Assembly: GCF_900157305.1 (NCBI RefSeq)
Contig: NZ_LS974202.1
Span: 744,001-808,000, forward strand
Direction: 5' to 3'
From: Mesotoga infera
GTDB taxonomy: Bacteria; Thermotogota; Thermotogae; Petrotogales; Kosmotogaceae
DNA: 64,000 nt
Part shown: positions 5,547 to 16,467 of the stretch, in pieces
Position numbering within the stretch: the stretch's first letter is position 1
How the letters are laid out: each line of letters begins with the position of its first letter
The notes under the pieces: model-generated
What the model saw: only the letters and a program-made list of their open reading frames with translations
Told to the model about the DNA's origin: nothing
Databases searched by the model: none
Program-made: the position numbers and the translations under genes

Positions 5547-6863
5547 TCATTTCCGTTCAGCTTCCCGCTTTATCCATTCCTCCAGAAGATCTATCAGCTC
5601 CACGGCTACGTATCCCGGTCTATCGTATTCTTCTACACTCTTTATAGTGCCGTCGGTTTCGTTGAATATGTGGTTCAGGCCCGGTAGAAGCTTCAAAGTT
5701 ATGTTTGGCCTTTCTCCGAGCTTCTCGACAAAGACGTCGAAGTATTTTTTGGGGCTCTGGAAGTCTAGCTCTGCGTTCACTATCAGCACCGGCATCTCGG
5801 TCTCTTCAAGCACCGGCATGCAGAAGTATTTGTCGAAGCTGTAGTAGTAGCCGGCCGTTATACCCTGTCCGAGATCGGTCTCGGGTGGTATCTCCTGATT
5901 CAGCATCTTGGTGAAAAAATCTTTTGTCTGTGCCTTTTGTTCTTCGGTCAGCTGAACGCCAACCAGGTCGAGGTTCTGATCGAGGCTTATCTGGGCCAGT
6001 TTCATAGGTGAACCGGCAAGCAGAATCATTCCGTCGACGCCGGCCTCCCGAGCGATCCAGGGCGCCACCATTCCGCCCATCGAATGTCCTGCCAGATAAA
6101 TGGAGCTGAACTGGGGAATTCCCTTCATCTGACCGATTATCGTAAGTGCGTCTTCTATATACTCCGCGTCGGCGTTTATTCCGATTTCGGCCGCCTGCTG
6201 GGGATACACATAGTACTTCTTGGGATATCTCAGGGTGGCTATTCCCCTCGAGGCGAGACCGGCCGCGAGATCCCTATAGGGTTTGTTCGGGCCGAGAGTG
6301 CCGTCGATGTCGTGTGTTCCCGAGCCCTGAAGGATTATCACGAGCGGATAAGATTCCAGACCGTTGGGAACCATGAGTTTGGCGGGCAGATAATAGGGGT
6401 CTTTGCCCACGGTTATATCCTGCTCGGTGTAATTGGCCGGGTTCACATACTCGGGCAGAGGCCTCTCTTCAGGGACTTCGACGGGCTGCGTTTCGGTCTT
6501 TTGGTAGCTCGAAGGCCTCACGAAGAAACCGGCGACTTTTCCCTCGGTGTTCAACGTCACTATGAAATCGAAGATACCGGCTTTGAATTCGGTGGCGAAA
6601 ACATAAACCATATACTCGCCCTGCTGGACCTGTTGAACATCCAGCGTGGCTATCGGCCTGCCGAGCTGGACATCGAGCTGGGTCTTCAGGTTTTTCAGCA
6701 CCGTGACGGGCTGGGCTTTTCTCATCGTCTCGTCCTGCATCTGGTAGATCTCTTCGAACCTGCCTTCGTAAAGACCGTTGATATACTGGATCGCTATATC
6801 TACCGAAGCCATGGCCAGTACGGAAAATAAAACCACTAGCAACAAAACCAGTTTTCTCTGCAT
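5547..6863 (-). CDS. Secreted alpha/beta hydrolase with N-terminal DUF3887-like domain
   Basis: 438 residues. A signal peptide (MQRKLVLLLVVLFSVLAMAS) is followed by a ~100-residue DUF3887-like domain and then an alpha/beta-hydrolase fold. LQGSGTHD near residue 180 looks like the oxyanion-hole strand, GHSMGG near 260 is the nucleophile elbow with catalytic Ser, and GLNH near 395 holds the likely catalytic His; an Asp around NAELDFQSP would complete the triad. The exported protein probably acts as an esterase or acyl hydrolase on peptides, lipids or antibiotics. Sitting between two ABC exporter modules, it may process or detoxify what they transport, but no substrate can be named. Confidence 0.83.
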   Translation of the reverse strand: MQRKLVLLLVVLFSVLAMASVDIAIQYINGLYEGRFEEIYQMQDETMRKAQPVTVLKNLKTQLDVQLGRPIATLDVQQVQQGEYMVYVFATEFKAGIFDFIVTLNTEGKVAGFFVRPSSYQKTETQPVEVPEERPLPEYVNPANYTEQDITVGKDPYYLPAKLMVPNGLESYPLVIILQGSGTHDIDGTLGPNKPYRDLAAGLASRGIATLRYPKKYYVYPQQAAEIGINADAEYIEDALTIIGQMKGIPQFSSIYLAGHSMGGMVAPWIAREAGVDGMILLAGSPMKLAQISLDQNLDLVGVQLTEEQKAQTKDFFTKMLNQEIPPETDLGQGITAGYYYSFDKYFCMPVLEETEMPVLIVNAELDFQSPKKYFDVFVEKLGERPNITLKLLPGLNHIFNETDGTIKSVEEYDRPGYVAVELIDLLEEWIKREAERK

Positions 6864-6970
6864 ACTTCAAAACCTCCCGTATGAAATGGATCGAAAAGTT
6901 GATCGTACATCTTTTTTAACTTGCTGCATCAACAGTGTATCGCTCGATACGGTTCATCCGTTCACTATCA

Positions 6971-7741
6971 TTATAATTCTTTCTTTTTGAAGAGCACGTA
7001 ATCTGCGGCCGTCAGTGCGATCGTCACCGCCAGAAGCGCCACCAGGTAGATCCAGTCTATCGTTCCGCTCTGAATTACAGTCGTTGCCAGAATGAAAGGA
7101 TAGGGATTCAGCCATGAGATCGCCTCGATCATTCCGATTATCGGAAGTCCTATAATCAGTATGATACCTAACACTACCGGTTTCACCTGATCCTTGCTAA
7201 TCACGGACAACAGCGTGAAGAGCGAGTAAAAGAAGGCGACACCCACAAGTTGCTGGAGAAGAGCCTTCAATGTTCCCGAGAAGTTCACTCCGTAACCGGT
7301 CAGGTTCATCGCGATCGGTCCTAGCAGGGATAAAGCGGTCGTAACTACCAGGACCACGCCCAGTCCGATCAGATACTTCGCCATAAAGACGTCTTTCCTG
7401 TTTTTTCTCGAGAGGAGGAAGTAGATGGTCTTTTTGTCGAACTCTTTGGCGAAGATCGGAAAGGTTATCAACAATACCACCAGGGGCAAGAACTGCCCGA
7501 AGTTTTTGCCCTGCCACTGACTGAGCAGATAGTAGTTGTCGTCGTCGAGTTTTGTGAGGCTCGATGTGTCGCCGATTAGTTTCTTCAGAAAGTCGGGCAA
7601 CTCCTCGAGCTGTCCGGCCATCTCGGACATCATCTGGGAGGCGTACGGTCTCATCACGATTGTCGTTATGAGAGAAATCACCAGAACGGCTATGATCAGA
7701 ATCACCCTGAGTTTCATTTCGTTCAGTTCCTTATAGAGCAT
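6971..7741 (-). CDS. ABC-2 type transporter permease
   Basis: 256 residues with six predicted membrane segments: the first at 12-30, then a ~65-residue extracytoplasmic loop, then a cluster of five from about 80 to 250. This is the usual ABC-2 permease layout. The ATG at 7741 follows GGGGGAAC and overlaps the stop region of the ATPase at 7731-8585 by 11 bases, so the two form an exporter. It is the second gene after the main promoter at 8618-8647. Confidence 0.85.
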   Translation of the reverse strand: MLYKELNEMKLRVILIIAVLVISLITTIVMRPYASQMMSEMAGQLEELPDFLKKLIGDTSSLTKLDDDNYYLLSQWQGKNFGQFLPLVVLLITFPIFAKEFDKKTIYFLLSRKNRKDVFMAKYLIGLGVVLVVTTALSLLGPIAMNLTGYGVNFSGTLKALLQQLVGVAFFYSLFTLLSVISKDQVKPVVLGIILIIGLPIIGMIEAISWLNPYPFILATTVIQSGTIDWIYLVALLAVTIALTAADYVLFKKKEL

Positions 7742-8585
7742 TTTTGTTCCCCCTTACGAGAAGGCTGAAGAAAACTTCGAGATCTACCTTTTCTTCTTTT
7801 GCGCTTCCGATTTTTCCTAGCTTTTCCATTGCGTTCTTATCGTCGGTCAAAACTTTGACTGCTCCCGTTTCCTTGACCACGGCCAGGTATCCGTTTCTGT
7901 CCAGCTCGGTCCCGGCCGGCAGACAGAAGAGCGTGAACCTCTCGTCCAGGCCTTTCAACTCTCCACTGTACAGTATCTCGCCCTTGTACATTATCGAGAA
8001 GACGTCTGCTATCTTTTCTATTTCCGGTATTATATGGGAAGTGTAGAGAACTGTCTTTCCGCTGTCTGACAAACCTCTTATCATATCCAGAACTTCGTCC
8101 CTTCTCAGGGGATCAAGCCCCCAGGTCGGTTCGTCGAATATGAAGATATCGGCCGATTGGGCCATCGCGATCGAAAGGTATGCCGCAGTCCTCATGCCGT
8201 GAGAGAAGGAGGAGATCTTTTTACCCATCGGGAGATCGAAATGCCTCATGAGCTCTTCGGCCTTCGAGGGAAGGAAATTGTCCAGAACCATCGAACACAT
8301 TTTGATGGCCTTCTCGGGGGTGAGGTTTTCGTAGAAGCTCTTGTCCTCAGGTACGAAGGATATCCTGTCTCTCACTTCTTCCACGGTCTTTCCCAGAATT
8401 TTTATTTCACCGCTGTACTCTACCAGGCCCAGAATCGATTTCAGTGTGGTGGTCTTACCCGCGCCGTTCGGCCCCAGGAGGGCATTGACCCTTCCCGGAA
8501 CTATCTCCAGGTCGATACCCTTGACAGCTTCAAAACTTCCATACGACTTTCTCAGGTTTCCTATTACTATCGTTCTTGCAGACAC
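7731..8585 (-). CDS. ABC transporter ATP-binding protein (YtrB-like), first gene of operon
   Basis: About 284 residues. Walker A GPNGAGKTT, signature SFSHGMRTAAYLS and Walker B IFIFDEPTWGLDP are intact, followed by a C-terminal extension like that of its paralogue at 4273-5139. The reading frame extends to a GTG at 8594, but that codon overlaps the Shine-Dalgarno; the GTG at 8585, eight bases after AAGGAG, is the better start. The gene lies directly behind a consensus promoter overlapped by the putative GntR operator, so it is the first target of the regulator. It pairs with the ABC-2 permease at 6971-7741. Confidence 0.87.
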   Translation of the reverse strand: MSARTIVIGNLRKSYGSFEAVKGIDLEIVPGRVNALLGPNGAGKTTTLKSILGLVEYSGEIKILGKTVEEVRDRISFVPEDKSFYENLTPEKAIKMCSMVLDNFLPSKAEELMRHFDLPMGKKISSFSHGMRTAAYLSIAMAQSADIFIFDEPTWGLDPLRRDEVLDMIRGLSDSGKTVLYTSHIIPEIEKIADVFSIMYKGEILYSGELKGLDERFTLFCLPAGTELDRNGYLAVVKETGAVKVLTDDKNAMEKLGKIGSAKEEKVDLEVFFSLLVRGNKNAL

Positions 8586-8963: not shown

Positions 8964-11891
8964 GTGAGGTCCAGACTGACACCATTCCTGGTGGCCGCCT
9001 TAAGCGCTTTGCTAATGCTGATTATGATACTTATAACGCTGGAGAACAAGACGAGCAAAACGGAGAAGCAGCTCGCCGGTTCTACCAGGCTTTTCGTCGA
9101 TGAGACTGTAAAAGCCGTTCTTATCGGTTACTTCCACCGCGATTGCATCTTGAAATCCATCGAAGAAGGGGACATCGAGTCGGTCTCCCATAACCTTGAA
9201 TACCTCATGGAAGACAACGCTCCCCTGTCAGGAGTGCGGGTGGTCATCGACGGAACGCCTTTCATCGAACTGGGCGATATAATCACTCACAACGATACCG
9301 TGGCCGTCAAGGGTGATATGCCTTACACTATCTTCTACGACGAGGGCTTCTTACTGGCCGCAACAGCGATAAGCGATGGCCGCGGAGCACAGAATGCCGA
9401 TGATTCTTATGCACTTATCGCGATAAAGCTGTCCAGCATCATCGATCTTCTGACTGATGAGAGGTATGTTCTCTCAGAAAAAGCCAATACGAAGATATAC
9501 GGAAGTCTCGGAATAAGGCTAGCGAGAGACATAAACATGGGAAACGCCCTTTCCCTGGTCTTCGCGTTTGTAATCAGTTACCTGTTTATGATTTTTATTC
9601 AGACAAAGACTGAAAAAGGCTTCGTGGTCGCGAAGAATAGAGAACAAGCCTTCCTTCTTAACAGCATACCGTCGATGATATGGTGTCTGAAAGACAGCAG
9701 AACCTTTGGAATGGTTAACAGTCAGTTCGCACGATTCTTCGGTAAACGACCCGAAGAGATAGAGAACCATGTTATCGAAGATGTGCTTCCGTCAAGCGAA
9801 GTTGAAAGCTGCATCGAGAGCAATGAAGAAGTCATCAGAAGCAAGGCGCCTGTCTCTTTCAAGCAGAGCTCCACGAATCACGCCGGTGAGAAGAGAACCA
9901 TAGCAATCACCAAGATTCCCGTAACCAGCGAGAGCGGAGAAGTCGATTCCATAATCTGCACCGCCGAAGATGTGACCGACAAAGAAGTCGCCGAAAGTAG
10001 GCTCAGATTGATTCAGTTCGCTCTGGACAACGTCAACGAAGAGGCCTTCTGGATCTCCAAAGAGGGCGATATACTTTACGTCAACAAAGCGACATGCAAG
10101 GCTCTCGGATACAGCCAGGACGAACTGGTCGGAATGAAAGTCCATGACGTGGATCCGACCGAATTGGCAAAGAATAGGGACTTGAACTGGGAACAGGTCA
10201 AGAAGAGCCGTCAGGATGTGATAGAGACTTTCCACCGCAGGAAAGACGGCACTATCTTTCCCGTAGAGGTGAATAGAAATTATCTGATTTACGAAGAAGG
10301 CCAGGAGTACGAATTCAGCTTCGCCAGGGACATATCTGAACGGCGAAGTGCACAAAACAGATTGGAAAGAGAAAAACGGAGGATCGAAAGACTCCACGAA
10401 ACGGCATTGGCCATGGAGAGATGCAGAGAAAAGCGGGAGGTCTTCGAACTCATAATTCAGGCCGCCAGAAGCATACTCGACTTCGACATATGCTTCGTCG
10501 CGATCGCCGAGAACGATCACTTTTCCATCAAGATCTCGTCCAATCTCAGTCCCGAAGACCCAACAACCATGCCGCTGAACGTGGGAATAGTGGGAAAGAC
10601 TTACAGAGAGAAAAAGAGCTTTGTTCTTGAGGATATACAGGAATCGGAACAGGCCTTCAGGACCAACAATGAATACCACGGGGGACTGAGCGTTCCCGTG
10701 GGAAATATCGGTGTTTTTCAGGCCATGTCGATGGAGAAAAACGCGTTCACAGATGAAGACGTCAAGCTGGCCGAACTGCTTATGTTGCACGCCAGCGAAG
10801 CGATAAAGCGAATAGAGACAGAACAAGAGATGGCTTACATGTCTCTTCACGACAGGTTAACCGGCCTCTACAACAGGGTCTATTTCGAGGAGGAGATCCA
10901 GAGGCTAAACTATTCTAGACTTTACCCGATCTCGATAATCTCGGCCGATATAGACGGCCTCAAGTTGATAAACGACACGATGGGCCATTCCACCGGAGAC
11001 GATTTGTTGAGGTCTTTCGCCGAAATTCTTAAGGCCAACATGAGGAGTTCCGACGTCGTTTCGCGTTTCGGAGGAGATGAGTTCGCCGCGATTCTGGTAT
11101 CCACCGATCGTCCAACGGCCGAAAGAGTCATTGAAAGGATAAGGAAGGCTGTCGCCAGATACAACGAAAGTCGGAGCGGTCCGTTCCTCAGCTTTTCAAT
11201 GGGAGTCGCCACGAGCAATAACGGCGAGAGCTCTCTGCTGGATTGCTTGAAGCTGGCCGACGATCTTATGTATCGTGACAAACTGAGCAGGAGCAACAGT
11301 GTAAGAAGTCAGATGGTGAATACTTTGCTGCTAACTCTTGCGGAGAAGGATCATATATCGGGCGGTCATGCGAGCAGACTTCAGGAAATGGCTATCAAAC
11401 TCGGCAAAAGAATGGGGCTCAACTCCGACCAGTTGGTGGACCTCTCTCTGTTTGCCCAGGTGCACGATCTTGGAAAGGTGGGTATCCCCGATAGAATACT
11501 TTTCAAACCGGGAAAACTGACGGAAGAGGAGTGGGGGATAATGAAGCTCCATCCCGAAAAGGGGTACAGAATAGCCGTATCTTCCCCGGACCTTTCTACA
11601 GTCGCCGACCTCATACTCAGACACCACGAGAGATGGGATGGAAAGGGGTATCCACTCGGGTTGGAAAGAACCGAGATCCCGATCGAATGCAGGATTCTTT
11701 CAATTGTGGACGCCTACGACGCCATGACTAACGATAGACCTTACTGCAAGGCAAGGAGCCATTCGGAGGCCCTCAAAGAAATCGAAAGATGTGCCGGAAC
11801 TCAGTTCGATCCAAAGATCGTCGAGGAATTCCTTAAAATGCTTCAAGAAAGTCCCCGTCTTCAAGGTTCCGTATCTTCGGAGAACTCATGA
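8964..11891 (+). CDS. Membrane PAS-PAS-GAF-GGDEF-HD-GYP protein (c-di-GMP synthesis/turnover)
   Basis: 975 residues, GTG start with GGGGAG upstream. Two membrane helices (about 8-27 and 195-213) flank an extracytoplasmic sensor domain. Cytoplasmic order: PAS (~225-345), PAS (~347-465), GAF (~480-630), GGDEF (~640-785) and HD-GYP (~790-965). GGDEF is intact at about 703-707, with the RxxD inhibitory site (RSSD) five residues before it. HD-GYP has HDLGK near 834 and HHERWDGKGYP near 887-897. Both catalytic domains look competent, so the protein could make and degrade cyclic di-GMP, switched by the sensory domains. It stands alone, with the next gene converging from the other strand. Confidence 0.93.
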   Translation: MRSRLTPFLVAALSALLMLIMILITLENKTSKTEKQLAGSTRLFVDETVKAVLIGYFHRDCILKSIEEGDIESVSHNLEYLMEDNAPLSGVRVVIDGTPFIELGDIITHNDTVAVKGDMPYTIFYDEGFLLAATAISDGRGAQNADDSYALIAIKLSSIIDLLTDERYVLSEKANTKIYGSLGIRLARDINMGNALSLVFAFVISYLFMIFIQTKTEKGFVVAKNREQAFLLNSIPSMIWCLKDSRTFGMVNSQFARFFGKRPEEIENHVIEDVLPSSEVESCIESNEEVIRSKAPVSFKQSSTNHAGEKRTIAITKIPVTSESGEVDSIICTAEDVTDKEVAESRLRLIQFALDNVNEEAFWISKEGDILYVNKATCKALGYSQDELVGMKVHDVDPTELAKNRDLNWEQVKKSRQDVIETFHRRKDGTIFPVEVNRNYLIYEEGQEYEFSFARDISERRSAQNRLEREKRRIERLHETALAMERCREKREVFELIIQAARSILDFDICFVAIAENDHFSIKISSNLSPEDPTTMPLNVGIVGKTYREKKSFVLEDIQESEQAFRTNNEYHGGLSVPVGNIGVFQAMSMEKNAFTDEDVKLAELLMLHASEAIKRIETEQEMAYMSLHDRLTGLYNRVYFEEEIQRLNYSRLYPISIISADIDGLKLINDTMGHSTGDDLLRSFAEILKANMRSSDVVSRFGGDEFAAILVSTDRPTAERVIERIRKAVARYNESRSGPFLSFSMGVATSNNGESSLLDCLKLADDLMYRDKLSRSNSVRSQMVNTLLLTLAEKDHISGGHASRLQEMAIKLGKRMGLNSDQLVDLSLFAQVHDLGKVGIPDRILFKPGKLTEEEWGIMKLHPEKGYRIAVSSPDLSTVADLILRHHERWDGKGYPLGLERTEIPIECRILSIVDAYDAMTNDRPYCKARSHSEALKEIERCAGTQFDPKIVEEFLKMLQESPRLQGSVSSENS

Positions 11892-11926
11892 GCCGGTGAA
11901 ACGGCCACAGGTTTCCGGCACACAGT
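11892..11926 (+). terminator. Possible terminator after the c-di-GMP gene
   Basis: GCCGGTGAAAC (11892-11902) can pair, with a two-base bulge, with GTTTCCGGC (11911-11919), followed by a short T-rich stretch. It lies between convergent genes. Confidence 0.4.
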
Positions 11927-11932
11927 TTTCGT

Positions 11933-12619
11933 TTATCTCTTCACATCGTTGACTATATTGCCGTCTCTTATTTCGACTATCCTGTCGGTCTCTTCGGCGA
12001 TCCTTCTATCGTGCGTGATCACTATGAAGGTCGTTCCGTATTTCGCGTTCAGATCACGCATCAGTCTGAACACCTTGGCCGATGTATCGGAATCCAGATT
12101 TCCGGTCGGCTCGTCGGCCAGTATCACTTTTGGGTTGTTGATCAACGCCCTCGCGATGGCCGTTCTCTGCTGCTGGCCGCCAGACATATTGGGAGCGAGG
12201 TTATCTTTTACCTGGGTTATTCCGACAACTTCCATGAGTTCCTTCGCTCTTTCGATCACTTCCCTCGAAGGCCGGATCGCCTTTATTTTGTAAGGCATCA
12301 ATATATTCTCGAAGGCTGTGAACTCCGGTAGAAGGTAATGGAACTGGAATATGAAACCTATCGTCTCGTTCCTTACGGCGGCCAGCTCGTTCTTGCTCAT
12401 GGTGTCCGTCCTTTTGCCGTTTATGGTTATCTCTCCGCTGGTTGGAAGGTCGAGAGTGCCCATGATGTTCATGAGGGTGGATTTTCCGCTGCCGGATTGG
12501 CCGACGATAGAATTGAAGGAACCTTCTTCGAAAGTCAGGTTGATCCCGTGGAGCACTTCGGTCTTGATAACAGTCCCATACACCTTTCTTACTTCTTTCA
12601 ATTCGATTATGTTAGCCAT
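11933..12619 (-). CDS. ABC transporter ATP-binding protein, MacB/LolD type
   Basis: 228 residues, the usual LolD/MacB ATPase length. Walker A is GQSGSGKST, the signature MSGGQQQRTAIARAL and Walker B VILADEPTGNLD; the last two are hallmarks of the LolD/FtsE/MacB subfamily that drives FtsX-like permeases. ATG at 12619 with GAGGTGATAAGGA upstream, overlapping the permease gene end by eight bases. Such pairs move lipoproteins, peptides or drugs from the outer face of the inner membrane. It is the last gene of a four-gene operon starting with the aldo/keto reductase. Confidence 0.92.
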   Translation of the reverse strand: MANIIELKEVRKVYGTVIKTEVLHGINLTFEEGSFNSIVGQSGSGKSTLMNIMGTLDLPTSGEITINGKRTDTMSKNELAAVRNETIGFIFQFHYLLPEFTAFENILMPYKIKAIRPSREVIERAKELMEVVGITQVKDNLAPNMSGGQQQRTAIARALINNPKVILADEPTGNLDSDTSAKVFRLMRDLNAKYGTTFIVITHDRRIAEETDRIVEIRDGNIVNDVKR

Positions 12620-13778
12620 TCCTTATCACCTCGACGGGACTGAGTTTCGACGATCTTCTGGCCGGAACGAGCGCGGCAATGGTGGAAGCGCCGATGGCTA
12701 TGAAGGCCGACAGCATGATGAATCCGTAGTTCACGTAGATACCGACGACCGGCTCGCCGTCGGGACCGACCGCGAAGGTGCTGAACATAAGTATAAGAAG
12801 GAAGCCGAAAGCTATACCGACGACCGCGCCGATTATACCGAGAGTCAATCCCTGGAAGAGGAAGACCTGACTCGAAACTGAATCTTTCAAACCCATCGCC
12901 TTCAGAATACCTATCTGCCTGGATTTCTGGACAACGGTTATCGCGAGCACGCTCGCTATTCCAAGTGAAACGGCGATTATCACAAAGACCTGTATCATTA
13001 TGCTCGATACGCTTTGCCCGTTGAGACCTGTCAACAGATCTTCATTCTGCGCCTTCCAGTTGGTGACGTCAAATTTCGCGTCAGCCAGCGCCGATGCTAT
13101 CGCAGTTGCATCTTCGTCGGCCTTGAATACTTCTTCTACCTGCATCTCGATAGAAGTTACGGAGTCTCCAAGTTTGCCGACACCCTGCGATGTCGCTATT
13201 GACGAGATCAGCCATGACTTGTTCAGGCTGGCCACTTTCAGATCGAAGACTCCCACTATTTTTAGAGTCTCGATGGACCTGTCGGGGGTTATTACGGTTA
13301 TCTGCCCGCCCTTTTGAAGGCCGAGCTCGTCTTTCAGATCCTTACCGATCAGAACCTCATCGGCCGTTTTGGGAAGCTCCCCTTCAATAATTCTTGTATC
13401 GATGCCGTATATCGAATTGGCCTGCGGGAACTGAAGCCCTCTTAGGAGGACGGAAATCGTGCGATCGCCGCTGCTTATGAAGACGGGAACATCTGCACTT
13501 GCCGAGAGCGCCGTCAGGGGTGTCGGTAGCTGGAGGGACTCCACCTTTTCCTGTATCTCTTGCCAGTTCTCTATCTTCCTGTCTGGAGTATTCGACGTTA
13601 TGGTAACCTGCGACGAGTTGCCTATGGTAGTATTGACCAGATCTTTCTGGAGACCCTGGATCAGCGATCCTATGAAGACCTGTACCGAGACCCCTATGGC
13701 GATTCCAAGTATTATAAGCAGGGTCTGCGCCTTGCTGGAGGAAAGAAATCTGAAGGCTATCGAAAGGGCCAGTTTCAT
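12612..13778 (-). CDS. FtsX-like ABC transporter permease (MacB/LolC type)
   Basis: 388 residues with the standard topology: one N-terminal membrane helix (about 15-35), a ~220-residue periplasmic MacB_PCD domain, then three C-terminal helices of the FtsX domain (about 260-385). The sequence LSPVEVIRNG at the end is characteristic of this family. It starts at ATG 13778 and overlaps the cobalamin-binding gene by four bases, so translation is probably coupled. It works with the ATPase at 11933-12619 as a mechanotransmission-type ABC system. Confidence 0.9.
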   Translation of the reverse strand: MKLALSIAFRFLSSSKAQTLLIILGIAIGVSVQVFIGSLIQGLQKDLVNTTIGNSSQVTITSNTPDRKIENWQEIQEKVESLQLPTPLTALSASADVPVFISSGDRTISVLLRGLQFPQANSIYGIDTRIIEGELPKTADEVLIGKDLKDELGLQKGGQITVITPDRSIETLKIVGVFDLKVASLNKSWLISSIATSQGVGKLGDSVTSIEMQVEEVFKADEDATAIASALADAKFDVTNWKAQNEDLLTGLNGQSVSSIMIQVFVIIAVSLGIASVLAITVVQKSRQIGILKAMGLKDSVSSQVFLFQGLTLGIIGAVVGIAFGFLLILMFSTFAVGPDGEPVVGIYVNYGFIMLSAFIAIGASTIAALVPARRSSKLSPVEVIRNG

Positions 13779-14428
13779 TTGAGATCACGCTCCCCCATCT
13801 TCAGAATCTCGACCGGATCGGTGAGATAAATGTCGGCGCCGATCTCTTTCCAGTATTCTGGGTTGTTTCTAAAGGCGTTTCCCCCAACGATTATACTGGA
13901 CTGGGGCGTCCACTGCTTGATTTGTGAAATGACGCGCCGCCCGCTTATCAGATTGTAGTAGTTGGATATGCTAACGGCAACGTACAGTGGCTTTAAAACC
14001 TTAACGGCCTCTAGAAAGGAATCCTGTGGGGTGTTCGCGCCGGCGAAAGTAACGTCGTAACCGGCCAGCGCGAAGATATCGGCGATCATCCTCGCTCCGA
14101 TTTCGTGGTACTCCTCAATCGGGCAGACGACGGCAACCTTGGGGCCTTTTACGTCGCCGAACCTCTCCCTTTTCTTGCGCGCGATATAGGGGTAGCAACA
14201 CTCCATTACCGTTCTGACTATGGAACTTCTCACATGTTCGTTCCATATGCAGAGCCTGTCGGACTCGTAATCACAGTCCCATTCGTTCAGGGCGGGAGTC
14301 AACACATGAAGATAAAGACCGGGAATGTCCGTCCTTTCCTCATCTATGGCTTTTATACAGATCTCGACCGCCCTGTCTTTGTCCTGTTCGTCCAGAGCCT
14401 TTCTGAACTCCTCATAGAGCGTTTTCAA
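13775..14428 (-). CDS. Stand-alone cobalamin (B12)-binding domain protein
   Basis: 217 residues. The N-terminal ~90 residues form the helical cap domain with NEHVRSSIV, matching the EH motif of the B12-binding cap in sensory proteins such as CarH. The C-terminal ~120 residues are a Rossmann-type cobalamin-binding domain with EYHEIG, a D/ExHxxG motif holding the lower-axial His, and later VGGNAF where the family has SGG/VGG. No MerR DNA-binding domain and no methyltransferase partner are present. TTG start at 14428 after GGAGGTGG. Both junctions in the operon are four-base overlaps. It may be a corrinoid-based sensor or carrier; which one is unknown. Confidence 0.8.
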   Translation of the reverse strand: MKTLYEEFRKALDEQDKDRAVEICIKAIDEERTDIPGLYLHVLTPALNEWDCDYESDRLCIWNEHVRSSIVRTVMECCYPYIARKKRERFGDVKGPKVAVVCPIEEYHEIGARMIADIFALAGYDVTFAGANTPQDSFLEAVKVLKPLYVAVSISNYYNLISGRRVISQIKQWTPQSSIIVGGNAFRNNPEYWKEIGADIYLTDPVEILKMGERDLK

Positions 14429-15261
14429 ACGAGCCCACCTCCCTTTAATTCGTCTAGAATCTTCATGTCCTCCGGAGTCAGAACGATGTTCTTCGAATCG
14501 ATGTTCGATCTCAGATGATCGATTTTTTCCGCTTTCGGTATCACGATTACTCCTTCCTTTCCTAGAAGCCAGGCCAGCATTATCTGCTGGGGAGAGGCGT
14601 AGTATTTCTCCGCCAACCTCTCAAGCGCCTGCCTGGTGAATTCACTCACAAGATTTCTCTTCAGGGGAGAATAAGCCGTGAGGGTTATGCCTTCACTCTG
14701 ACAGAATGGAAGAAGCTCATACATCGCCTGACGATCCTCGATGTTGAAAAGAACCTGGTTGTTGACGATAGGTTCCGTCGAGACGGCGATCGCTTTCTTG
14801 AGGAGGTTTGTATCGAAGTTCGAAACGCCGATGAACCTGGTTCTTCCGGCCCTGACCTCGTCTGCCATCGCCTTCATGGTCTCGCCCAGAGGCACGTCGG
14901 GATTGGGCCAGTGAACCAGATACATATCGACATAGTCGGTGCGTAACCTTTTTAGTGTACCGTCCAGCGCTCTGTGCAGATCTCTCTCTCTCAGGTGCGT
15001 CGGCCAAACCTTGGAGACCAGAAAGAGCTCTCTCCTGTCGAAAAGCGATATGGCTTCCCCGATCAACTCTTCAGTATGGCCTCCGGCGTAATATTCGGCA
15101 GTGTCTATGTGATGGTAGCCCATCTCTATCGCACGTGCGATGGTATCTATGTACTCCCCGTCCCTGGAGGTGTCCGGACCTTCCCTACCTCCGATAGCCC
15201 ACGTTCCCAGACCGATTGCAGCTATCTTCTCGTCGCTATTTTTGAGTCGCCTGTATATCAT
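14425..15261 (-). CDS. Aldo/keto reductase
   Basis: 278 residues, NADPH-dependent oxidoreductase of the TIM-barrel AKR superfamily. The catalytic tetrad is visible: Asp in HIDTAEYY (near 53), Tyr in the same motif (near 58), Lys in VSKVW (near 83) and His in VHWPNP (near 118). The C-terminal IPKAEKIDHLRSN matches the NADP-binding loop. ATG at 15261 with AGGGGTGA upstream. It opens a four-gene operon with the B12-binding protein and the FtsX-type ABC pair. Confidence 0.92.
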   Translation of the reverse strand: MIYRRLKNSDEKIAAIGLGTWAIGGREGPDTSRDGEYIDTIARAIEMGYHHIDTAEYYAGGHTEELIGEAISLFDRRELFLVSKVWPTHLRERDLHRALDGTLKRLRTDYVDMYLVHWPNPDVPLGETMKAMADEVRAGRTRFIGVSNFDTNLLKKAIAVSTEPIVNNQVLFNIEDRQAMYELLPFCQSEGITLTAYSPLKRNLVSEFTRQALERLAEKYYASPQQIMLAWLLGKEGVIVIPKAEKIDHLRSNIDSKNIVLTPEDMKILDELKGGGLV

Positions 15262-15445
15262 ATTTTCACCCCTTTAATTGATTTTACATTATGCTAATGA
15301 AGCCGGCAAGAACGGTAAAGAGCCGTTCGAAGTATTCAATTTTGATTTTGACATGCCTGCCGCCCGATTCTTACACGGAAGAATGGTAAAATATTGAGGA
15401 GAAGAGATATCTATCATGGTCGTTTGATCGGAGGTTTTACCGCCT

Positions 15446-16150
15446 ATGAAAGTAGCCGAAATGATAAAGAGCCTGTGGATGATCGTTCGCTCCGTCATTC
15501 CTCTTGCAGGCTTTTTGATAATCTTCCAGGTTTTAATTTTCAGAAAGCCGCTCGGGGATCTTAAGAGCCTGCTCCTGGGCATCGTGATGAGCGTATTCGG
15601 TCTTTTCCTGTTTCTCAAAGGAGCCTCGATCTCCCTCATACCGCTGGGAGGCTCCTTCGGCAGGAGTATCGTGGTTCTTGACAACATTCTGCTGATAATA
15701 GCCATAGCCTTTTTGCTGGGCTTTCTGGCAACTCTGGTCGAGCCGGCCCTGACTTCGACCTCGCTGGAAATTGAAGAAGTTTCGACAGGGACTATACCCT
15801 CGGCCTCGATCACTTACTCCGCGGCGGTGGGATTCGGACTCGGCATGGCTCTGGGTGTTTTCAAAATCGTGAGCGGCACCTCCATCAAAACTATAATGGT
15901 TCCTTTTTTGATTGCAATGACGGTTCTTGTGATACTTTCCAGCAAAGAGATGGTGGGCATAGCCTTCGACGTTGCGGCAGCCACTACCGGACCGGTCAAT
16001 ATACCGATAACCGTGGCGATCTCGATAGGCCTTTCTTCGGTCATACAGGGCAGTGATCCTCTGCTCAACGGATTCGGGCTGGTCGGTTTCGCCTTCATGG
16101 GTGCGGCTATGTCGATTCTCTTTTTAGGCACCGTTATGAGGTTCTTCTGA
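15446..16150 (+). CDS. DUF1538 family integral membrane protein
   Basis: 234 residues, nearly all hydrophobic, with seven or so membrane segments. EPALTSTSLEIEE and ATTGPVNIPITVAISIG are conserved-looking blocks of the DUF1538 family of putative transporters. GGAGGT lies ten bases before the ATG. It is followed after 11 bases by a PII-like protein, a linkage often seen for this family and suggesting nucleotide-gated transport. DUF1538 is frequently present as two copies in tandem; only one is encoded here. Confidence 0.8.
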   Translation: MKVAEMIKSLWMIVRSVIPLAGFLIIFQVLIFRKPLGDLKSLLLGIVMSVFGLFLFLKGASISLIPLGGSFGRSIVVLDNILLIIAIAFLLGFLATLVEPALTSTSLEIEEVSTGTIPSASITYSAAVGFGLGMALGVFKIVSGTSIKTIMVPFLIAMTVLVILSSKEMVGIAFDVAAATTGPVNIPITVAISIGLSSVIQGSDPLLNGFGLVGFAFMGAAMSILFLGTVMRFF

Positions 16151-16161
16151 GGAGTGATACT

Positions 16162-16467
16162 GTGAGTGATGTCTGCGCGATAATCGCGATTGTAGAAAGG
16201 GGAAGGGCCGAGGAGATAGTAAAGGCCGCCCGGGCCGCCGGAGCAAGGGGGGCGACCGTGAGCTTCGGGAGGGGTACTAGCGACAACGAAATAAAGAAGT
16301 TCCTGCATATAAACGTTGAGTCTTCGAAGGAAATTATACTCATACTCACGAAGAGAAGCGATCTGGACGGCATATTCCAGGCCGTTGTCGATTCGGGAAA
16401 ACTCGAAGAGGAGGGGAAGGGAATAGCTTTCGTGCTGGACGTCCCGAAGATGGTCGGCAGATTGTGA
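16162..16467 (+). CDS. PII-like regulatory protein
   Basis: 101 residues, GTG start at 16162 with GAGGAGTG upstream. The beta-alpha-beta repeats of the PII/GlnB fold are recognisable: AIIAIVERGRAEEIVKAA for the first unit, ARGATVSFGRG before the T-loop, and EEEGKGIAFVLDV in place of the B-loop/beta strand. The T-loop region is short and lacks the uridylylated Tyr context of GlnB, so it belongs to the divergent PII group that regulates adjacent membrane proteins rather than glutamine synthetase. The likely partner is the DUF1538 protein encoded just before it. Confidence 0.8.
   Translation: MSDVCAIIAIVERGRAEEIVKAARAAGARGATVSFGRGTSDNEIKKFLHINVESSKEIILILTKRSDLDGIFQAVVDSGKLEEEGKGIAFVLDVPKMVGRL

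Follow-up and report, generated by a model that had tools for sequence, protein, structure and literature searches.

A cobalamin-binding-fold protein paired with a Lol-superfamily ABC exporter in Thermotogota and a few Lokiarchaeota-phylum archaea: a putative B12-responsive transporter subunit

The window analyzed here, a stretch of 64,000 nucleotides from the 2.97-Mb genome of Mesotoga infera, carries four genes arranged head to tail on the minus strand, which encode an aldo/keto reductase (AKR), a small protein with the B12-binding fold (hereafter, the B12 protein), a permease and an ABC ATPase (Table 1). The original prediction held that the B12 gene is locked between its neighbors by four-base overlaps, and such overlaps are indeed found at both the AKR/B12 and the B12/permease junctions, followed by an overlap of eight bases between the permease and ATPase genes. 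The span given there, 13775-15261, contains the AKR and the B12 protein but leaves the permease and the ATPase, which occupy 11933-13778, outside. The TTG start codon of the B12 gene overlaps the stop codon of the AKR gene (TTGA) and is preceded, at a distance of six bases, by GGGAGGTGG, which by its position is probably the ribosome-binding site. The run is flanked by a divergent DUF1538 gene on one side and a convergent GGDEF/HD gene on the other. Promoter and terminator scans returned 4 and 6 sites, respectively, compared with 2.9 and 4.1 in shuffled sequences. The riboswitch scan of the window gave no Rfam match at the gathering threshold, and at 11 other loci the same threshold yielded tRNA only and no riboswitch; riboswitch control of these genes was accordingly rejected.

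Table 1. Features of the four-gene run, in window coordinates
Feature	Position	Strand	Basis and remarks
Aldo/keto reductase (AKR), 278 aa	14425..15261	-	ORF list and Pfam; leads the run, but only within the window's genus
GGGAGGTGG, probable ribosome-binding site of the B12 gene	14435..14443	-	Position; putative function
B12 protein (putatively B12-binding, sensor-like), 217 aa, TTG start	13775..14428	-	ORF, Pfam, fold model, alignment
FtsX/MacB_PCD permease, 388 aa, LolE/LolC-like fold	12612..13778	-	ORF, Pfam, model; constant neighbor of the B12 protein
LolD-like ABC ATPase, 228 aa	11933..12619	-	ORF, Pfam, NCBIfam

The order B12 protein, permease, ATPase is kept at all 24 loci found, which belong to 21 Thermotogota genomes and three genomes of the phylum to which a Lokiarchaeota record belongs (hereafter, the lokiarchaeal phylum); the ATPase is visible at 23 of these loci, and at the 24th its position is cut off by the contig end. 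Gene order that varies among relatives had been named as grounds for abandoning the predicted association, and this test came out in its favor: the genes for the B12 protein and the permease are adjacent in 24 of 24 cases, an arrangement beyond chance given that every locus keeps both side by side. The four-base overlap between them recurs at 17 of the 24 loci, with an 18th unclear, and the eight-base overlap between permease and ATPase at 22 of 23. Among 103 Thermotogota genomes, a profile of the B12 protein gave 21 matches of at least 213 bits, the remaining ones among those listed (E up to 1e-20) scoring 106-124 bits; in 195 genomes of the lokiarchaeal phylum, it gave three matches of 256-314 bits, and the others among those listed reached at most 139 bits. 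With the window's permease as the query, the same 21 of the 103 Thermotogota genomes were recovered (best piece at least 201 bits), the next genome scoring 77.5 bits, and a close permease (at least 228 bits) was found, among 190 lokiarchaeal-phylum genomes, in the same three and in one more (G198), with weaker matches of 58-77 bits in a further 12. The Fisher p of 2e-22 for the co-occurrence of protein and permease is a description only, because the genomes are related, and the pairwise distances across 22 genomes, which correlate between the B12 protein and the permease (r = 0.87) and between the B12 protein and the ATPase (r = 0.92), are likewise uncontrolled for kinship.

The pairing of the B12 protein and permease genes is thus solid, with one exception found, G198, in which permease and ATPase are present and the region upstream of the permease contains neither a B12 gene nor a recognizable remnant of one. 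Permease-ATPase pairs that are more distant (22-25% identity) and lack a B12 gene also occur in Thermotogota; one genome (G047) has an in-frame stop in the B12 gene with the permease and ATPase genes open, and another (G050) has a broken permease. All four observations count against the view, developed below, that the B12 protein is a subunit of the transporter.

The AKR, which the original prediction had counted as a member of the unit, is confined to the window's genus: it lies directly upstream of the B12 gene at all nine loci of that genus, and the stretches retrieved for the remaining 15 loci contain no close copy; two of these loci (L044 and L049) have distant AKR-like genes on the opposite strand (27% and 22% identity). 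The conserved unit therefore consists of three genes, and the AKR was rejected as a part of the mechanism for the family as a whole. Among the loci scanned, the genes upstream of the unit vary from genus to genus and encode, according to Pfam, a P5C-reductase-like protein (L045), an indigoidine-A-like protein (L047 and L049), a pyrophosphatase (L048), a DUF6544 protein (L044), a DUF1761 protein (L033) or a protein without a Pfam match (L034 and L043). Dissemination of the unit by phages or plasmids was also considered and rejected: the phage scan gave no match to the B12 protein, no relative was confirmed in the viral contigs scanned, and the twelve matching plasmid records all showed less than 34% identity; five of these annotate a cobalamin-dependent protein, and the two examined encode long paralogues of 350 and 373 aa. 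The wider scan of genome contigs used one protein and not an alignment as the query, so that the spread of the family beyond Thermotogota and the Lokiarchaeota phylum is poorly sampled.

The B12 protein matches the Pfam families B12-binding (5.2e-16) and B12-binding_2 (3.6e-6), both above the cut-offs, and its AlphaFold2 model (mean pLDDT 92.3) comprises a helical cap (residues ~1-90) and a Rossmann B12 domain (~95-217), so that both hallmarks of the cobalamin-binding fold, this domain pair and the D/ExHxxG loop, are found. Foldseek ranked photocobilins first, followed by MttC, the Chloracidobacterium MerR-family B12 domain, AerR and CarH. In VIA-align comparisons, the photocobilin 8j2w (Z 24.6, 2.3 A, 204 residues) and the MerR-family B12 domain 8jbt (Z 21.4, 2.7 A, 207 residues) fit best, followed by MetH (Z 19.9, 2.9 A, 208 residues), the monomethylamine corrinoid protein MtmC (Z 19.7, 3.0 A, 204 residues) and CarH (Z 18.8, 2.8 A, 191 residues), which by these scores is no closer in fold than MetH. 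A single-sequence search of the PDB placed 8jbs (3.4e-11) ahead of MttC (1e-7), and a profile search placed MttC (3.5e-14) just above 8jbs (8.5e-14). The best NCBIfam models, MtgC and pyl_corrinoid, score slightly above CarH, all of them far under the cut-off. Within the window's genome, the best relative is a sensor-like paralogue encoded in a 381-aa frame (87.6 bits), and two methyltransferase-type corrinoid proteins match at 30.6 and 32.2 bits. Long paralogues of this kind adjoin a GGDEF gene at 7 of 11 loci, six in Thermotogota (Pfam recognized one of these neighbors, and the other five were assigned from their resemblance to the GGDEF protein of the window) and one in Ilyobacter (annotated); those without such a neighbor are three from the lokiarchaeal phylum and one from Skermanella. 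A branch with support of 100/100 separates the 24 B12 proteins from the other rows of a 38-row tree, and the fork between the long paralogues and the corrinoid proteins is weak (51/89), with long branches. By fold and pairwise scores, the B12 protein thus appears nearest to B12 sensor domains, from which it may descend, and the tree leaves the corrinoid proteins of methyltransferases as possible closest relatives. The predicted close tie between a sensor-type cobalamin-binding fold and an ABC exporter pair holds up on both Pfam domains, the fold and the conserved gene order.

The ligand motif ExHxxG (E106-Y-H108-E-I-G111) and the cap motif EH (E64-H65) are present as had been claimed, E64, H65, E106 and H108 in all 24 proteins and G111 in 23; the invariant columns further include C102, P103, G130 and P134, and C52, C60 and W62 are each kept in 23 proteins. 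The published light signature of B12 domains comprises the four motifs GxxW, EH, GxxH and GxxxP (PMC11796333), of which the window's protein carries two, EH and GxxxP. Both are universal in the family, and GxxW is lost altogether, Gly51 and Trp54 being found in none of the 24 proteins and in all 11 long paralogues, each of which carries GxxW-x9-EH. The glycine of GxxH is replaced by glutamate in the window's protein, column 105 containing E in 21 proteins and D, G and Q in one each, compared with Gly in 5 of the 11 long paralogues. A light switch of the CarH type, with which the original prediction compared the protein, is not borne out by a protein with only two of the four motifs from a family in which GxxW is absent. 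According to PMC10442372, the tryptophan of CarH stacks on the adenosyl group, the EH glutamate bonds to the same group, and the next residue, His132, binds cobalt once the adenosyl group is lost. In the B12 protein, W50 (present in 19 of the 24 proteins, with an aromatic residue in 23) lies 13 residues before E64, compared with 9 in CarH-type domains, and W62 sits inside the EH turn; the longer spacing before EH noted previously is therefore found when counted from W50, but an ungapped alignment sets Y54 at the position of the CarH-type tryptophan. W50, four residues earlier in what the AlphaFold2 model presents as a loop (residues 49-59), may replace the lost tryptophan. Overall, the alignment, from which the geometry of C52 and C60 is also judged, indicates that the part of the cap that would read the upper ligand is rebuilt in these 24 proteins. 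Because the adenosyl-stacking tryptophan column is lost in all of them, AdoCbl is possibly not the ligand.

The permease contains MacB_PCD and FtsX domains, and its partner gene had been taken, together with it, for a MacB-type exporter; the comparisons favor a different member of the superfamily. The model of the permease (pLDDT 79.8, pTM 0.56) has the LolC/LolE fold (Z 31.9, 4.3 A, 371 residues), with lower scores against a pneumococcal non-canonical transporter (Z 25.4), MacB (Z 21.6) and the haem exporter HrtB (Z 20.6, 6.0 A, 330 residues), and the best NCBIfam models are lolCE for the permease (137.1 of 362.45 bits) and LolD for the ATPase (255 of 307.75 bits), both below the cut-offs. 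In MacB, the ATPase is fused to the permease, whereas here they are encoded by separate genes. MacB works with MacA/TolC partners, and lipoprotein release by LolCDE involves LolA/LolB; the seven genes scanned between 8964 and 16467 include no membrane-fusion gene. At E 1e-15, the window's genome contains no other permease of this kind, a close permease is absent from 82 of the 103 Thermotogota genomes, and the permease occurs in archaea; a housekeeping role in lipoprotein release is therefore disfavored. The archaea of the Lokiarchaeota phylum are not known to have an outer membrane to supply.

Cobalamin seems to be within reach of the hosts. In the window's genome, a single cobalamin riboswitch precedes a BtuFCD-type set of periplasmic-binding, FecCD and ABC genes, and the genome appears to import B12; it also has two adenosyltransferase genes (PduO-type and CobA-type) and no match to CbiD. 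CbiD is found in 3 of the 21 unit-bearing Thermotogota genomes; the other 18 therefore probably do not make the corrin ring, and export of home-made B12 was rejected on this count. At least one adenosyltransferase is encoded in all 21 of these genomes, and also in 100 of the 103 overall, so that the supply of AdoCbl is uninformative as a discriminating test.

The association of the B12 protein with a two-gene membrane pump suggests a transporter that is either switched by B12 or handles it. The most economical reading, which we hold tentatively and at slightly less than an even chance, is that the protein is a putative cytosolic regulatory subunit that responds to cobalamin and gates its own, dedicated ABC exporter of type VII (Lol/MacB superfamily). 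A B12 domain of the kind to which transcription factors or diguanylate cyclases respond in other systems would here hold cobalamin between the Rossmann domain, with His108 as the lower ligand, and the helical cap with its EH motif, thereby fixing the position of the cap. The cap would move upon loss or change of the upper ligand, or upon a change in the redox state of cobalt or thiols that is read by C52/C60, and its shift would cause the protein to bind or release the permease-ATPase complex and hence the exporter to open or shut. This reading draws on the adjacency at 24 of 24 loci, the co-occurrence in the same 21 genomes, the varying upstream genes, the single branch in the tree, the residues kept in all 24 proteins and the cobalamin at hand, and also on the fits to 8j2w and 8jbt, the score of the sensor-like paralogue and the GGDEF neighbors of the long paralogues. 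Against it count, besides the exceptions to gene pairing given above, the rank of CarH relative to MetH, the profile search headed by MttC, the NCBIfam ranking of MtgC and pyl_corrinoid ahead of CarH, the weak fork in the tree and the doubt about AdoCbl as the ligand. That these genes represent a new type of ABC transporter, either under the control of B12 or exporting corrinoids, in Thermotogota and some Lokiarchaeota-phylum archaea, with a B12 sensor domain that has a two-cysteine cap in place of the adenosyl-stacking one as a standing subunit of a Lol-superfamily exporter, is possible, with the balance leaning against it.

The B12 protein could instead be a cytosolic carrier that trades corrinoids with a membrane complex, which in turn would export or partition non-preferred or damaged corrinoids. 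Such a function would agree with the steady association between a corrinoid-binding fold and an ABC pair of the exporter class and with the fit of the permease model to HrtB, a tetrapyrrole exporter, and C52/C60 could bind cobalt once the upper ligand is gone. However, HrtB ranks under LolC/E and MacB, the window's genome appears to import B12, and no corrinoid gene was found among the window's neighbors or the 18 neighbors scanned at other loci; with corrin makers scarce among the hosts, the export reading is weakened, and we consider it unlikely. Loss of B12 binding has been proposed for class II LitR (PMC9758184), and the B12 protein might similarly be a former B12 protein that now serves the transporter as a structural or thiol-redox subunit without cobalamin. 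The lost cap tryptophan and the gained cysteines point in this direction, but the retention of E106, H108, G130 and P134 in every protein and of G111 in 23 would be best explained by cobalamin binding, which makes this adaptor role rather improbable. Light sensing by the B12 protein, in which photolysis of AdoCbl would switch the exporter as it switches transcription in CarH, is also unlikely and has, in our estimate, a slim chance: B12 photoreceptor domains are its nearest matches in fold, it retains EH, GxxxP and the lower histidine, and all unit-bearing Thermotogota have adenosyltransferases, but these enzymes are equally a background feature, the group is known from anaerobic, mostly dark habitats, and of the light signature GxxW is missing throughout and the glycine of GxxH from all but one protein. 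A small catalytic corrinoid protein that partners a methyltransferase, with the transporter moving its substrate or product, would agree with the profile matches to the MttC, MtgC and pyl_corrinoid models, the proximity in fold to MetH and MtmC and the weak forks of the tree, but is improbable, because no methyltransferase was found among the seven genes at 8964-16467 or the 18 neighbors scanned elsewhere and because EH, invariant here, is missing from the two methyltransferase-type corrinoid proteins of the genome, which moreover match far more weakly than the sensor-like paralogue.

Returning to the regulatory subunit, the nearest precedents share parts of the proposed arrangement. The photocobilins (SasPcob 8j2w/8j2x and AbDPcob 8j2y) have the same cap-plus-Rossmann fold, and according to PMC10979010 a stand-alone photocobilin influences a separate cyclase through protein contact, a likeness to the contact proposed here; the B12 protein, with its 217 aa in all, has no space for a globin-like domain, has lost GxxW and is partnered by an ABC exporter in place of a diguanylate cyclase. 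CarH/LitR (5c8a, 5c8d) and the MerR-family proteins 8jbs/8jbt share the fold, EH, the lower histidine and GxxxP, whereas the B12 protein lacks a DNA-binding domain and has, in all 24 family members, a residue other than tryptophan in the tryptophan column, with C52/C60 instead. MttC (7xcn), the best profile match, MtmC (3ezx) and the B12 module of MetH (1bmt) share the domain pair and the histidine loop, and differ in the methyltransferase genes, absent among the neighbors scanned here, and in EH, which the two corrinoid proteins of this kind in the window's genome lack. On the membrane side, LolCDE has the permease fold and a similar ATPase, but has two permeases where there is one here, the scores fall below the NCBIfam cut-offs, and the present unit also occurs in the Lokiarchaeota phylum. 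The tetrapyrrole exporter HrtBA belongs to the same superfamily as the permease, which, however, has a Lol-like outer domain; HrtBA has a smaller outer part and is not known to have a B12 partner.

Among the literature matches listed, the titles and abstract beginnings contain no earlier account of a B12-binding protein in partnership with an ABC exporter, and B12 sensor domains are described in PMC10979010 and PMC9758184 as acting on DNA-binding proteins and diguanylate cyclases. If the regulatory reading is correct, a membrane transporter would be a novel type of output for these domains. According to PMC11071462, no active mechanism of cobamide export has been identified in bacteria, and mycobacterial BacA carries cobalamin both ways in liposomes, as PMC10960864 reports; if true, a corrinoid-exporting function would be relevant to the release or expulsion of corrinoids by bacteria. 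The unit consists of three small genes and is directly testable in E. coli.

In one Thermotogota genus (loci L034 and L088), the B12 gene of the conserved unit is directly preceded by a gene for a protein with a signal-like start, possibly a substrate or partner; the L034 copy is without a Pfam match. In the genome of the window itself, a 380-aa relative carries B12 domains and the canonical GxxW-x9-EH motif, with no Pfam match in residues 1-168, and its gene overlaps a GGDEF gene, a pairing also found at five further Thermotogota loci and in Ilyobacter.

Within the window, the 975-aa protein gene is convergent with the ATPase gene of the unit, and the DUF1538 protein is perhaps a P-II-regulated membrane protein.

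Features near the unit, and the long paralogue with its GGDEF gene
Feature	Locus	Position	Strand
Protein with signal-like start, hydrophobic C-terminus	L034	5270-5953	
Same	L088	5759-6442	
DUF1538 protein, then 101-aa P-II-like protein	window	15446-16467	+
975-aa protein (PAS, GAF, GGDEF, HD domains)	window	8964-11891	+
380-aa B12-domain protein	L050 (G000:C1 near 1585000)	6844-7986	
GGDEF gene	L050 (G000:C1 near 1585000)	5916-6881	

A Lokiarchaeota-phylum genome (L153, G198) holds a permease and an ATPase of the unit's family without the B12 gene. An in-frame stop lies within the B12 gene of G047 (L087), and the permease gene is broken in G050 (L086), a genome of the same genus; these lesions reflect either decay or assembly error.
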